Source of the DNA: Burkholderiales bacterium | GTDB taxonomy: Bacteria > Pseudomonadota > Gammaproteobacteria > Burkholderiales > Burkholderiaceae_C | DNA length: 57,518 bases | NCBI GenBank assembly: GCA_013044035.1 | Contig: JABEVE010000099.1 | Location: forward strand, 1 to 57,518 | Reading direction: 5' to 3' | Notes under the pieces: model-generated | What the model saw: the letters and a program-made list of their open reading frames with translations, nothing else | Told to the model about the DNA's origin: nothing | Database searches by the model: none | Shown: in pieces, positions 1,807-57,518 of the stretch | Numbering within the stretch: position 1 is the first letter of the stretch | Layout: every line of letters starts with the position of its first letter | Program-made: the position numbers and the translations under genes

Positions 1807-2589
1807 TCAGCGGTTCGAGTAATCGGTCGCGAGGGCGGCGTTGGCGCGGCCCGTGTCGGTACGCTGCGGCAAGGCGTTCGGCATGGCCCTGGTTGATCCA
1901 TCTCCGACGGAGCCGTTGCCATCCGAGGTCGCTGCAGCCGGCGCTGCCTGAGCCTCGGGAACCGCATCCGCAGCGCGGGTTATGAAGCGCCGAGCCCCGT
2001 CGAAGCGTCGAGACCAATAGGGATTGTTGAGGTTGCCGATCTGCACGTCCTGTCCCGGTTTGGGCGCGTGCACGAACTCGCCGTTGCCGATGTAGATGCC
2101 CACATGCGAGAACGCGCGGCGCAGGGTGTTGAAGAACACCAGATCGCCCGGTCTCAGCTGGTTTTCAGCAATTTTTTCGCCCTCGCGACTTTGCTGTGCG
2201 GCGTTGTGCGGCAGCACCAAGCCCAGGGTCTGCTGATAGACGTGACGCACGAACCCCGAACAGTCGAATCCGGTGGCGGCATGGTCGCCACCATACTTGT
2301 AGCGCACCCCCAGGAAGCTCAGGGCATTGATGACCAGATCGGAAGCATGCGTTGAAACCTGCTGCACCAGGCCATTCTGTGCCAGCCATTGCTGCAGCGA
2401 ATCGCGGCTGCTGGAGGGGGTTTCCGGCGCTTGCGTCGGGGCGGTTTGCAGCACATGCGTCGGCACGCCACGGCTGGCGTCGCGCTCATCCGGGCCGACA
2501 GGGCGATGTTGCGCGCAAGCGGTCGCCGCGCCCGCCAGCATGGCCAGGAACAGTGCTGACTTGATCGCTCGGGCGTGCAGATTTCCCAT
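1807..2589 (-). CDS. NlpC/P60 (C40) family cell-wall endopeptidase lipoprotein
   Basis: A 260-residue murein endopeptidase predicted to cut peptide stems of peptidoglycan in the periplasm. The N-terminus is a hydrophobic signal ending in a lipobox-like ATAC, so lipid anchoring is likely. The C40 catalytic domain shows the nucleophile in DCSGFVRHVYQ, the typical LRPGDLVFF stretch, and the catalytic His in SHVGIYIGNGEFVHA. The roughly 60 residues after the domain are low-complexity Ala/Ser/Gly. It converges on lpdA and diverges from acuI; the 90 bp between it and lpdA show no clear terminator. The start at 2589 is chosen because it gives the complete signal. Substrate specificity cannot be read from the sequence. 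Confidence 0.88.
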   Translation of the reverse strand: MGNLHARAIKSALFLAMLAGAATACAQHRPVGPDERDASRGVPTHVLQTAPTQAPETPSSSRDSLQQWLAQNGLVQQVSTHASDLVINALSFLGVRYKYGGDHAATGFDCSGFVRHVYQQTLGLVLPHNAAQQSREGEKIAENQLRPGDLVFFNTLRRAFSHVGIYIGNGEFVHAPKPGQDVQIGNLNNPYWSRRFDGARRFITRAADAVPEAQAAPAAATSDGNGSVGDGSTRAMPNALPQRTDTGRANAALATDYSNR

Positions 2590-55441: not shown

Positions 55442-55518
55442 GGTGGCTGTAGCTCAGTTGGTAGAGTCCAGGATTGTGATTCCTGTCGTCGTGGGTTCGA
55501 GTCCCATCAGCCACCCCA
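55442..55518 (+). tRNA. tRNA-His (anticodon GUG)
   Basis: 77 nt including the histidine-specific G at position -1 (55442) facing discriminator C (55515), and encoded CCA. Acceptor GTGGCTG/CAGCCAC, anticodon loop TTGTGAT. The accessory cluster begins just downstream. Confidence 0.96.
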
Positions 55519-55534
55519 ATCAATTCAAGCACTT

Positions 55535-55561
55535 AGCCCGGACTCACCATCCGGGCTTTTT
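55535..55561 (+). terminator. intrinsic terminator after tRNA-His
   Basis: AGCCCGGA (55535-55542), 7-nt loop, TCCGGGCT (55550-55557), then T residues to 55561. Confidence 0.88.
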
Positions 55562-55635
55562 GTCGCCCGGCGTTCATGTAATGGCTGTGTAATGTCTGCA
55601 CGGGAATGGCCGGGCATGTTGCCTGCTCCAGAAAC

Positions 55636-55659
55636 GACAAACCCGGCGCGATGGCCGGG
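55636..55659 (-). terminator. candidate terminator of the minus-strand small-gene cluster
   Basis: Read on the minus strand: CCCGGC-N6-GCCGGG followed by TTTGTCGTTT. It lies 22 bp after the last small gene and between it and the tRNA-His terminator. Confidence 0.6.
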
Positions 55660-55680
55660 CGGCTGTGGAGCGATGCACGG

Positions 55681-55923
55681 TTAAAGCGGCAGCTTGTCGA
55701 AGTGCAGCATGTCGCGCAGGTAGAACCAGGCGTCGCGCTCCGCATCGTTGCAGTCTGCGGGCGGCTCAGGCTCCTTCCTGTCCACCGAGTTTGCAAGGCG
55801 TATGAACGCGCGCATGTCGGGCAACCCCAACGTGCGCAGCAGTTCGGCGTCGGTGGCATCGCGTGCAGTACGCGGCTGGTGGCGCTGTTCCAGGCGTAGA
55901 AGTCGAGATTCAAGGGCGCGCAT
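55681..55923 (-). CDS. small LExRLxRLE-helix protein A
   Basis: An 80-residue soluble, charged protein, last of the overlapping cluster. It opens MRALESRLLRLEQRHQP, the amphipathic helix shared with the next two genes upstream; the rest (ATDAELLRTLGLPDMRAFIRL ... DAERDAWFYLRDMLHFDKLPL) is its own. The start overlaps the stop of protein B in the 14-mer ATGCGCGCCCTTGA. No known family is recognised. Confidence 0.75.
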   Translation of the reverse strand: MRALESRLLRLEQRHQPRTARDATDAELLRTLGLPDMRAFIRLANSVDRKEPEPPADCNDAERDAWFYLRDMLHFDKLPL

Positions 55924-56140
55924 CGTTTACCCCCAGCACTCGGCGCAAGGTGTCTCGCAGCTTGGCTGCTGACGTTGAGAGCGGCCCGCGTGACTCCAGG
56001 CGGCGCAACACCTCACCCGGCCCGATGTGCGCCACCATGTCGACCACCTTTTGGCGGGCTGCGTTCGCTGCTGCGGCTTGCGCTTCGTCGGGCACGCGAG
56101 CACGCTCCAGGCGCTGCAATCGGCTTTCAAGGTTGCGCAT
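55910..56140 (-). CDS. small LExRLxRLE-helix protein B
   Basis: A 76-residue protein opening MRNLESRLQRLERARVPDEAQ. The centre (RQKVVDMVAHIGPGEVLRRLESRGPLSTSAAKLRDTLRRVLG) is helical and basic. The start overlaps the stop of protein C in ATGCGCAACCTTGA, the same arrangement as between B and A. No known family is recognised; the composition suggests a helical bundle or a DNA/protein-binding role, which is only a guess. Confidence 0.75.
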   Translation of the reverse strand: MRNLESRLQRLERARVPDEAQAAAANAARQKVVDMVAHIGPGEVLRRLESRGPLSTSAAKLRDTLRRVLGVNDARP

Positions 56141-56453
56141 GGCTTGTCTCCAGTTCGTCAACCCGCGCCAGCAGCGCATGGAAATACGCACGCTCTTGGC
56201 TGCTCCAATCGGCTGGCGGCTGCGGCTCCCACGGCGTGAAGCGCCAGCATCGCCCCATCGCCTCGGGGTGTCCCTGCTCGGTTATGACGCGCTCGAAGTC
56301 CGGGCTTACCGCTGCGATGTGGCGCCCACTGCGCGCGCACAGGATGATGTCCAGCGCCAAATCGAACCTTGCGCGGCCTATCTCCGGCTCGAATCGTTCG
56401 GGCTTGCGGCGCTGCTCCAGGCGCTCTAGGCGCACCTCAAGGCTTCGGCTCAT
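56127..56453 (-). CDS. small LExRLxRLE-helix protein C
   Basis: A 108-residue protein opening MSRSLEVRLERLEQRRKPERFEPE. The middle (ARFDLALDIILCARSGRHIAAVSPDFERVITEQG) and the end (ADWSSQERAYFHALLARVDELETSHAQP) look globular and helical. Its first 17 bases overlap the end of protein D. No family recognised. Confidence 0.75.
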   Translation of the reverse strand: MSRSLEVRLERLEQRRKPERFEPEIGRARFDLALDIILCARSGRHIAAVSPDFERVITEQGHPEAMGRCWRFTPWEPQPPADWSSQERAYFHALLARVDELETSHAQP

Positions 56454-56706
56454 GGGGTAGCTCCAACGCGGCAATACGCGCTTCAAGGCTGGCCGTTTCG
56501 TGCCCGCGTATCAGGATTTGCAGCAGGTAACCCAGCTTGGTAGCGCGGTTCACGTCCATGCGTCCATGCTTGGCGGCGCGATACACGGCGGCCAGTTCGT
56601 CTAGGCAACCCTGCACCGTGTCCAGCTTGATAGGCGGCCTGCCCAGGGGGGTAGGGGCGTTGTCCATGTCCACAACCTCGAATGCTTGCGGCTTCTTTTT
56701 GCTCAC
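56437..56706 (-). CDS. small protein D with C-terminal LEARIAALE helix
   Basis: An 89-residue protein from a GTG start. The N-terminus is Lys-rich (MSKKKPQAFEVVDMDNAP); LDTVQGCLDELAAVYRAAKHGRMDVNRATKLGYLLQILIRGHE is a helical core like those of small phage and integrative-element proteins. It ends SLEARIAALELPHEPKP, echoing the LExRLxRLE start of proteins A-C. It begins three bases after the stop of protein E. Confidence 0.75.
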   Translation of the reverse strand: MSKKKPQAFEVVDMDNAPTPLGRPPIKLDTVQGCLDELAAVYRAAKHGRMDVNRATKLGYLLQILIRGHETASLEARIAALELPHEPKP

Positions 56707-56709
56707 GGC

Positions 56710-57057
56710 TCAATGCTCCAGCGGCTGCACACCAAGGGCGCGCATGGTGGCGAGTTCCTGCATGGCGCGCATTCGCTCAATGTCGTTCACGATGCGCTCG
56801 GCGAACTCTCGGCACAGCCTGGCACGCTCCGCAGACAGCAAGTAGCCAATCCGTACCTTGCGGGGAATGTGCCCGTGCCGCTGGGCCTCCAGTAGCAGCA
56901 AGTCACCAAAGCAGGAAAGTTGCTCTGTCCACAGCTCGATGATGCGTTCGCGCAGTTCTGCGGCGTTCACAGGCCGTCCCCCATGTTGGCGCTCTTGCGC
57001 CACGAGAAACGCAGCGCCTTCCTGGCTGTCCGGCTTGGTTGCTTTGGGTTTCGTCAT
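56710..57057 (-). CDS. small protein E of the accessory cluster
   Basis: A 115-residue protein. After a polar start (MTKPKATKPDSQEG) it is strongly helical: ELRERIIELWTEQLSCFGDLLLLEAQRHGHIPRKVRIGYLLSAERARLCREFAERIVNDIERMRAMQELATMRALG. KVRIGYLLSAERARL resembles ATKLGYLLQILIRGHE of protein D, so D and E may be distant relatives. It starts inside the nuclease stop (ATGA). Function unknown. Confidence 0.75.
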   Translation of the reverse strand: MTKPKATKPDSQEGAAFLVAQERQHGGRPVNAAELRERIIELWTEQLSCFGDLLLLEAQRHGHIPRKVRIGYLLSAERARLCREFAERIVNDIERMRAMQELATMRALGVQPLEH

Positions 57058-57434
57058 CGCATGCCTGCCCGCAACAATTGCGCGGCGGCCTCCAGTCGAA
57101 GGGTCGCCAGCTCACGGCCTGGCGTGAAGATGGCCGGGGCGAGTTCGGCGGCGTCCACCACGGCCAGCCAAGGGCGGCGGCTCTGGCGATAGAACAGCAC
57201 CGGCTTTCGGTTCGTCGCCTCGGCCTGGCTGCATGCCTGCTGCCACCATGCCGCAATGGCCAGTTGCTCGCACCGCTTGCACTCGATAGCCCAGCCGGGC
57301 ACGTCCAGGCCGTCAGCACCACCGGCGCGGGCCTGGCCGATGTTCCGGCGCACCGCGTAGCCCAGCAGTTCGGACAGGGCGGCGAATAGCTCACGCTCGC
57401 CCGATGCGCCTTTGTTTCGCTGTGATGCACTCAT
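57054..57434 (-). CDS. PDDEXK-like (Holliday-junction-resolvase-type) nuclease
   Basis: A 126-residue protein. KGASGERELFAALSELLGYAVRRN holds the first acidic residue, GGADGLDVPGWAIECKRCEQL gives the D-x(n)-E-x-K metal site, and YRQSRRPWLAVVD the final strand. This is the fold of phage and archaeal-type resolvases. ATG 57434 is preferred over ATG 57440 because it overlaps the stop of the upstream gene (ATGA), like the other junctions. Its place at the head of the small-protein genes suggests a phage or integrative-element origin. Confidence 0.75.
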   Translation of the reverse strand: MSASQRNKGASGERELFAALSELLGYAVRRNIGQARAGGADGLDVPGWAIECKRCEQLAIAAWWQQACSQAEATNRKPVLFYRQSRRPWLAVVDAAELAPAIFTPGRELATLRLEAAAQLLRAGMR

Positions 57435-57518
57435 TCCCACGGCCTCCCATCGTCCAGCGGCTCCAGGGCTCGGCTATGGGCTTTGCTGGGGGCTTCTGCT
57501 GTGGTTTTGCGCTGGCGC
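57431..57518 (-). CDS. C-terminal end of an unknown gene (partial)
   Basis: An open frame entering from the right edge ends RQRKTTAEAPSKAHSRALEP-LDDGRPWE and stops at 57431, overlapping the nuclease start in ATGA. Only 28 residues are visible, basic then acidic; no family can be named. Confidence 0.55.
   Translation of the reverse strand, partial: RQRKTTAEAPSKAHSRALEPLDDGRPWE

Follow-up and report, generated by a model that had tools for sequence, protein, structure and literature searches.

Redirection of packaging by a satellite is known from Staphylococcus aureus pathogenicity islands (SaPIs), with the proteins TerS and Ppi. In Escherichia coli, the protein Rpp of a phage-inducible chromosomal island (PICI) engages the motor of the helper phage by binding the small terminase, TerS (PMC6739421). 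In phages λ and P22, the C terminus of TerS binds the large terminase, TerL, in P22 at its first 23 residues (PMC9611059). Here, we describe a tight cluster of small genes beside a tRNA-His gene in a 57,518-nucleotide stretch of DNA from a Burkholderiales bacterium (contig JABEVE010000099.1 of GenBank assembly GCA_013044035.1, positions 1 to 57,518; "the window" means this whole stretch). All genes of the cluster lie on the minus strand and head toward the tRNA gene: a nuclease gene (F) is followed by genes E, D, C, B, and A, and a seventh gene ahead of F is cut. Our best explanation, held tentatively and with somewhat less than even confidence, is that D represents the tail of a TerS and that A, B, and C carry docking helices of the type found on TerL, the set being a satellite module for hijacking packaging or interfering with it.

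55443 to 55518, plus strand: tRNA-His (anticodon gtg; ARAGORN), the integration site
55469 to 55523, plus strand: attL-side repeat, 55 bp, 54 of them identical to contig C7 of the same genome (G000), positions 2501 to 2555 (minus)
55681 to 55923, minus strand: gene A, 80 aa, head MRALESRLLRLEQR (RhxxhE), body without a family match above cut-off
55910 to 56140, minus strand: gene B, 76 aa, head MRNLESRLQRLERA (RhxxhE)
56127 to 56453, minus strand: gene C, 108 aa counted from the ATG at 56453, head MSRSLEVRLERLEQR (RhxxhE)
56437 to 56706, minus strand: gene D, 89 aa, GTG start; hairpin-like core and C-terminal LEARIAALE
56710 to 57057, minus strand: gene E, 115 aa
57054 to 57434, minus strand: gene F, 126 aa, PDDEXK_15 nuclease
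57431 to 57518, minus strand: SSB-like gene, 3′ end only (...EPLDDGRPWE and stop), cut by the contig end

A preliminary description of this DNA, made from the sequence alone, had six genes and a partial seventh meeting in overlaps or a 3-bp gap on their way to tRNA-His, and all of them were located as it said. The cut gene overlaps F by ATGA, F and E overlap by 4 bp, E and D are separated by 3 bp, D and C overlap by 17 bp (with C counted from the ATG at 56453), and the C/B and B/A overlaps are 14 bp each. The GC content of A to F is high-low-high over the codon positions (0.69 to 0.77, 0.42 to 0.56, and 0.71 to 0.77), and because this pattern fits a GC-rich genome, we regard them as real genes. 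A 126-aa open frame at 55533-55913 (minus strand) overlaps A in another frame; given the codon pattern of A, it is probably not a gene.

The description also placed the same short helix at the start of A, B, and C and LEARIAALE at the end of D. Both are present: the heads read LESRLLRLE (A), LESRLQRLE (B), and LEVRLERLE (C), and each of them, like the D tail, contains R-h-x-x-h-E, a motif described as stabilizing parallel trimeric coiled coils (PMC5940361, citing Kammerer 2005). At the DNA level, the 39-base head stretches share 19 to 26 bases, and a repeat search gave no clear head repeat; the heads may or may not have arisen by duplication. The GYLL-centered helix said to be common to D and E amounts to the tetrapeptide; homology of the two through GYLL was rejected, the D profile giving an E value of 0.53 for protein E in a search of the six proteins. 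A, B, and C scored 0.0018 to 0.0035 with the D profile in the same search, via the shared coil.

By its profile matches, D is a member of a widespread family. It was matched in 6 of 28 genomes of the genus, at eight places in all, and its profile found 14 viral contigs and 7 of 369 genomes of the class; a wider profile found the same 14 viral contigs and 15 of 398 genomes of the phylum (each count of genomes including our own). In an alignment of 18 sequences (A2), E37, Y42, L62, R77, L81, and E82 are invariant, and D begins about 28 residues ahead of the conserved core, with no Pfam domain match. Several of the phylum matches are restricted to the second half of the D profile and are the C termini of proteins of about 150 aa. 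Seven such proteins were scanned: DUF5681 (PF18932) was above cut-off in four (L100, L103, L104, and L105; L numbers denote fetched loci and G numbers genomes) and below it in three, and all seven match phrog_9747 over their last 90 to 100 residues (E values of 1.8e-7 to 0.0045). Aligned with these seven by hhalign, D gave a probability of 96.9 over 68 columns, and controls with one side reversed gave 2.6 and 4.7. A profile of the seven matched five places in the 28 genus genomes, all of them D genes. A search for DUF5681 in our own genome gave no match, nor did one in the control genomes. Homology of D to the tail of DUF5681/phrog_9747-type proteins is thus moderately supported by sequence comparison. 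These proteins resemble D in having a C-terminal hairpin and an RhxxhE tail and in that the next gene is often RhxxhE-headed or TerL; they differ from it in an N-terminal part with an SGNPxGRP-type stretch, which D is without.

The neighborhood of such genes in phages points to packaging. One of the seven DUF5681-type proteins found four phage records, namely, Vibrio phages 340E47.2 and 5P1a, Pseudomonas phage Torfinnsbu, and MT836812.1. Of these, the proteins of 340E47.2 and Torfinnsbu belong to phrog_9747, listed with "unknown function" in PHROGs, and as queries they found 262 and 300 related phage records, respectively. TerL is the next or second gene after the DUF5681/phrog_9747-type gene in 16 of the 17 phage records fetched (for instance, after the genes at L106:3758-4216 and L108:4043-4522). 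It is directly next in 13, across record ends in Torfinnsbu and VLCpiS13b; among the 13 are the TerL of VLCpiS13b, annotated as a 450-base piece, that of DDSR119, and that of SF3, recognized by reading a frame that is interrupted. In KFS-SE2 and IME207, an HNH or homing endonuclease stands in between, and in Bas78, a small open reading frame (ORF) does. The strict motif occurs in the last 32 residues of 16 of the 17 DUF5681/phrog_9747-type proteins versus 10 of 622 background ORFs and in the first 40 residues of 6 of 15 TerL proteins versus 22 of 622, where the counted proteins are homologous rather than independent (among the 15, the TerL of 5P1a repeats that of 340E47.2). The Vibrio TerL has the head MNKATLRRLEKLE and then a short stretch before the ATPase, and we read its N terminus as closely resembling a separate headed protein that has been joined to TerL. 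With TerL beside them in nearly all records looked at, the phrog_9747 proteins are probably an unrecognized family of small terminases in phages of Salmonella, Klebsiella, Vibrio, and E. coli. Two records deserve separate mention. In Pseudomonas phage DDSR119 (L149, MT663720.1, positions 1 to 2055), a 474-bp gene is labeled large terminase and a 1,578-bp gene small terminase, labels that look swapped. MT836812.1 (L110, positions 450 to 1779), an unannotated fecal phage scaffold, encodes a DUF5681 protein, after which come four RhxxhE-headed ORFs that overlap and then tail-type genes.

Genes with heads like those of A to C also recur behind D. We scored ORFs of at least 45 aa that start −60 to +300 nucleotides from the stop of D and have [LIVM]xxR[LIVM]xx[LIVM]E in the first 30 residues; as controls, we used 346 other mechanically called ORFs in the same loci (80 aa or longer, on either strand, and away from D). 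L053 was left out since it has no sequence behind D, and the weak matches in G601 and G292 were not fetched with flanks. An RhxxhE-headed ORF lies behind D at 24 of the 39 loci, or at 23 of 38 if the window is excluded, versus 3 of 346 control ORF ends, a count that overstates independence, as the sample holds close relatives (L057/L059/L060/L062/L063 and L050/L056). Seven of the 39 loci are the DUF5681-type proteins (L099 to L105), 6 of them positive. Two headed ORFs stand in tandem in L042, L060, L062, L063, L090, and L093. Eight of the negative loci carry another conserved gene, LYST or LYST2 (L043 to L048, L088, and L089), and seven carry neither. LYST is an unnamed family of about 174 aa (LYSTLTPxxR...RRDxxExxRLxDTAP) and a partner gene behind D in islands of the genus (L043:8048-8569, L044:239-760, L045:7054-7596, L047:6442-7531, where it stands twice in tandem, and L048:1174-1695).

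The suggestion in the preliminary description that the cluster is an undescribed accessory module is partly supported. D with headed genes recurs at 23 of 38 D loci besides the window, in tRNA-borne islands and phage late regions; the exact set of the nuclease with A to E turned up nowhere else. Among the 28 genomes of the genus, C had one weak match outside our own genome and E one match; A and B were compared with the fetched loci only, by tblastn. In tblastn of A to E against the first nuclease loci, nothing besides the nuclease scored below 0.01 except the first 24 residues of E, which resemble the start of the gene at the same place in an island of genome G013. E itself has one relative, in the tail region of a prophage in G009 (44% over residues 28 to 115).

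No family library searched names A to E, which reached no curated cut-off in Pfam or NCBIfam and nothing better than an E value of 0.03 in PHROG and PADLOC. The earlier view that the five resemble no known family thus stands as far as cut-offs go and gives way for D, with its likeness to the DUF5681-type C terminus. Three candidates were not used: SUKH-4 for A (E value of 0.0029; 18.2 bits versus a cut-off of 25.5), MukB for B (13.6 bits versus 699), and AbiEi for E (E value of 0.033). A DNA search in phages gave no match, nor did tblastn of D and of two of its relatives, and single sequences of D and E matched none of the viral contigs scanned. In the PDB, the best match of the D profile was to designed coiled-coil trimers (E value of 0.17), and neither F nor the phrog_9747 protein of 340E47.2 had a match.

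The cluster forms the end, distal to the integrase, of a tRNA-His-borne island of about 9 kb, because the att repeat recurs on C7 together with an integrase and a primase and because a complete relative exists in G013. The window contig ends at the window edge, and the other end of the island is on C7. The 55-bp repeat takes in the final 50 bases of tRNA-His and 5 further bases. Its C7 copy adjoins an integrase gene (PF00589), a 487-aa gene, and the beginning of a primase gene (PriCT_2), which is cut by the contig end and is 80% identical to the primase in G013. The G013 island measures about 8.7 kb and is bounded by tRNA-Phe and by a 70-bp repeat of the tRNA-Phe 3′ portion with its flank, a copy at 93%. 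From tRNA-Phe onward come two other genes, the nuclease, the SSB-like gene, the primase, a 458-aa gene, the integrase, and the repeat. From this, the stretch missing between C7 and the window is estimated at about 1.5 kb, and the order of our island is integrase, 487-aa gene, primase, assembly gap, SSB-like gene, PDDEXK_15 nuclease, E, D, C, B, A, and att. The C-terminal end of the cut gene matches gene ends in two relatives, one of which matches the SSB family at 20.2 bits versus a cut-off of 26; we call the gene SSB-like because that match falls below the cut-off. No capsid, tail, or terminase genes were seen on C7 and the window (about 1.5 kb of the island being missing). With an integrase and direct repeats at a specific site, as also in G013, and a replication gene of its own (the PriCT_2 primase), the island looks like a phage satellite that a helper phage would mobilize.

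F is the PDDEXK-like nuclease that the preliminary description took it for, at 47.3 bits versus a Pfam cut-off of 27 for PDDEXK_15. It also matches a PHROG named RusA-like Holliday junction resolvase, and compared with PDDEXK_15 and RusA-like PHROG 244 nucleases, nothing unusual was seen in F. Its relatives occur in five loci in GTDB contigs, in 4 of 60 related genomes (our own included), and in five viral contigs; in four of the latter (L015 to L018, not L019), a TerL gene lies within a few genes after the nuclease (confirmed by Pfam in L015 and L016, with a TerS PHROG in between in L017, and by reading in L018). Related islands vary in the genes that occupy the integrase-distal slot. In those of G013, G020, and G011 (L011:8202-8906 [minus], L013:4740-5544, and L006:413-1178), the nuclease is followed by a gene of about 220 to 234 aa instead, and there is also a small gene ending near a TGPRTPEGKAxAAANSxKHG stretch. 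Directly past attR on C7 (L028, 1112-2448), another integrase gene and a small gene resembling an excisionase (below cut-off) suggest that two islands stand in tandem at this tRNA. Positions 55443-55680 of the window recur in G000 at C68:48922-49048, C53:108-199, and C72:26189-26358, the last being a tRNA-Phe; these places are perhaps the ends of further islands.

The settings of 41 D loci (window included) were scored with marker proteins drawn from the same loci. Integrase and/or primase markers without a structural marker were found in 20 and tape-measure, capsid, or TerL markers in 10; a further 10 had none of these (one with a resolvase-like gene), and the window has the nuclease. tRNA genes are near D in several loci (e.g., L043, L090, L093, and L101 to L103). 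D follows tape-measure or capsid genes in eight viral loci (L050, L052, L056, L057, L059, L060, L062, and L063) and tail-type genes in a prophage of G014 (L042). Resolvase-like genes occur in L044, L045, L046, L055, and L105, and the one in L103 is a PDDEXK_15; they stand directly ahead of D in L044, L045, and L046 and shortly upstream in L103 and L105. By reading, we take these genes, other than that of L103, to be RuvC-like; two that were tested had no Pfam match.

Several points weigh against reading D as a TerS tail and A to C as carriers of TerL-type helices. D itself has no phrog_9747 or DUF5681 match, and its link to phrog_9747 runs via intermediates. Removing the coil lowered the hhalign probability to 32.6, with the register unchanged, and the 18 columns of the coil by themselves gave 95.9; the similarity is carried mostly by the coil. 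To our knowledge, RhxxhE alone does not settle the oligomeric state of a coil. The 340E47.2 and Torfinnsbu phrog_9747 proteins have no Pfam match, MT836812.1 is the 1 record in 17 with no TerL beside its DUF5681 gene, and 9 of the 15 TerL heads are without the strict motif. Of 38 loci with relatives of the L055 TerL, 26 were read. The motif was flagged within the first 40 residues in 7, and none had the motif flagged at the end of an ORF upstream, although for several, no upstream ORF was found; such heads thus also occur on TerL relatives without a tail motif upstream. An RhxxhE-headed ORF is missing from 15 of the 39 D loci, and among the seven other D loci of the genus, only one (L042) has headed genes, the other six having a different partner gene. 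Outside D genes, no DUF5681-type gene was seen in the 28 genus genomes, hence no matching helper. D does not stand next to TerL, of which there is none in the island parts seen, and hijacking leaves unexplained why phage late regions, too, contain D and headed genes. Two of these points slightly lower our confidence: the missing direct match of D to phrog_9747 and the absence of the strict motif from most TerL heads.

What else could the set be? D and the RhxxhE-headed proteins might be a late structural or assembly accessory set of phages (e.g., coiled coils for tail or head completion), acquired by islands and with no terminase link. The eight viral loci with D behind tape-measure or capsid genes agree with this, as do the tail-type genes ahead of D in the G014 prophage, the relative of E in a prophage tail region, and a DUF5681 protein found in virions of Salmonella phage STGO-35-1, with no function given (PMC8954984); this was the only report on DUF5681 that turned up, and a paper naming TerS there may exist. 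We nevertheless consider this explanation unlikely, as 20 of 41 D loci combine integrase and/or primase markers with no structural marker, often near a tRNA, which indicates that islands devoid of structural genes retain the set, and as DUF5681/phrog_9747-type genes adjoin TerL.

Service in island replication or recombination, with D and A to C as coiled-coil partners of the SSB-like protein, primase, and nuclease, appears improbable. The small genes are codirectional and overlapping with the SSB-like and nuclease genes, and resolvase-like genes precede D in L044 to L046, L103, and L105; yet D occurs in phage late regions without these genes, and by tblastn, the G013 island, which has the SSB-like gene, nuclease, and primase, contains neither D nor A to C (G013 carries D in two other places). 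We would give as little credit to the slot being a cargo site in which A to E are antiphage or other accessory genes that happen to use coiled coils. Slot content does vary between related islands, and satellites of the PICMI type carry defense genes in such slots (PMC10803314). PADLOC models, however, gave no match below an E value of 0.03 for A to F (the best being AbiEi for E), and D with headed genes recurs in phages and islands, unlike random cargo. Among the functions proposed in the preliminary description, packaging accordingly gains some evidence, from the likeness of the D tail and from the TerL heads; defense gains none from PADLOC, and replication is represented in the same island by the SSB-like gene and primase but not by the small proteins.

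If D and A to C act on packaging, D would be the C-terminal part (hairpin and coiled-coil tail) of a DUF5681/phrog_9747-type TerS, minus the N-terminal DNA-binding part, and A, B, and C would present a short coiled-coil helix as on several TerL N termini, fused to different bodies. The overlapping genes would couple their synthesis. D could offer a TerS-like tail to the TerL of a helper phage, binding it through its C-terminal region to judge from the similarity, and/or join the helper TerS, and A to C could dock by their heads onto the tails of TerS or D. The helper terminase would be diverted to the replicated, resolvase-processed island DNA or be blocked for the helper. The island would need a helper motor because it has replication genes and a resolvase-like nuclease but no terminase was seen. 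We infer the TerS identity of the DUF5681/phrog_9747-type proteins, the coiled-coil pairing, oligomeric state, binding partners, packaging effect, and existence of a helper. In phage late regions, D and headed proteins may tune the phage's own motor or act structurally. A broader and rather doubtful possibility is a plug-and-socket arrangement, in which phages and satellites encode arrays of small proteins with the docking helix usual for the TerL N terminus beside a free TerS tail (D), several proteins with varied bodies compete for the TerS-TerL joint or plug into it, and satellites without a terminase seize or jam the helper motor. The packaging explanation, if true, would assign a role to an unnamed but widespread set of genes, found where tRNA islands end and in the late regions of phages. 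It would also suggest that phrog_9747 is the TerS of many Salmonella, Klebsiella, Vibrio, and E. coli phages (300 related records with one query) and would open the joint between TerS tail and TerL head to direct tests in a laboratory phage, e.g., Escherichia phage Bas78.

Among described satellites, PICMI (PMC10803314) and the P4/PICI elements are alike in being small islands with an integrase, a primase, direct repeats, and no capsid genes seen. Our island differs from PICMI in using tRNA sites instead of fis and in its tightly packed distal set of D and headed genes; AlpA was not found in the part of the island seen. Rpp of PICI and TerS and Ppi of SaPIs follow the same logic as proposed here, a small satellite protein engaging the small terminase of the helper; the likeness of D and A to C to these proteins is one of proposed logic.

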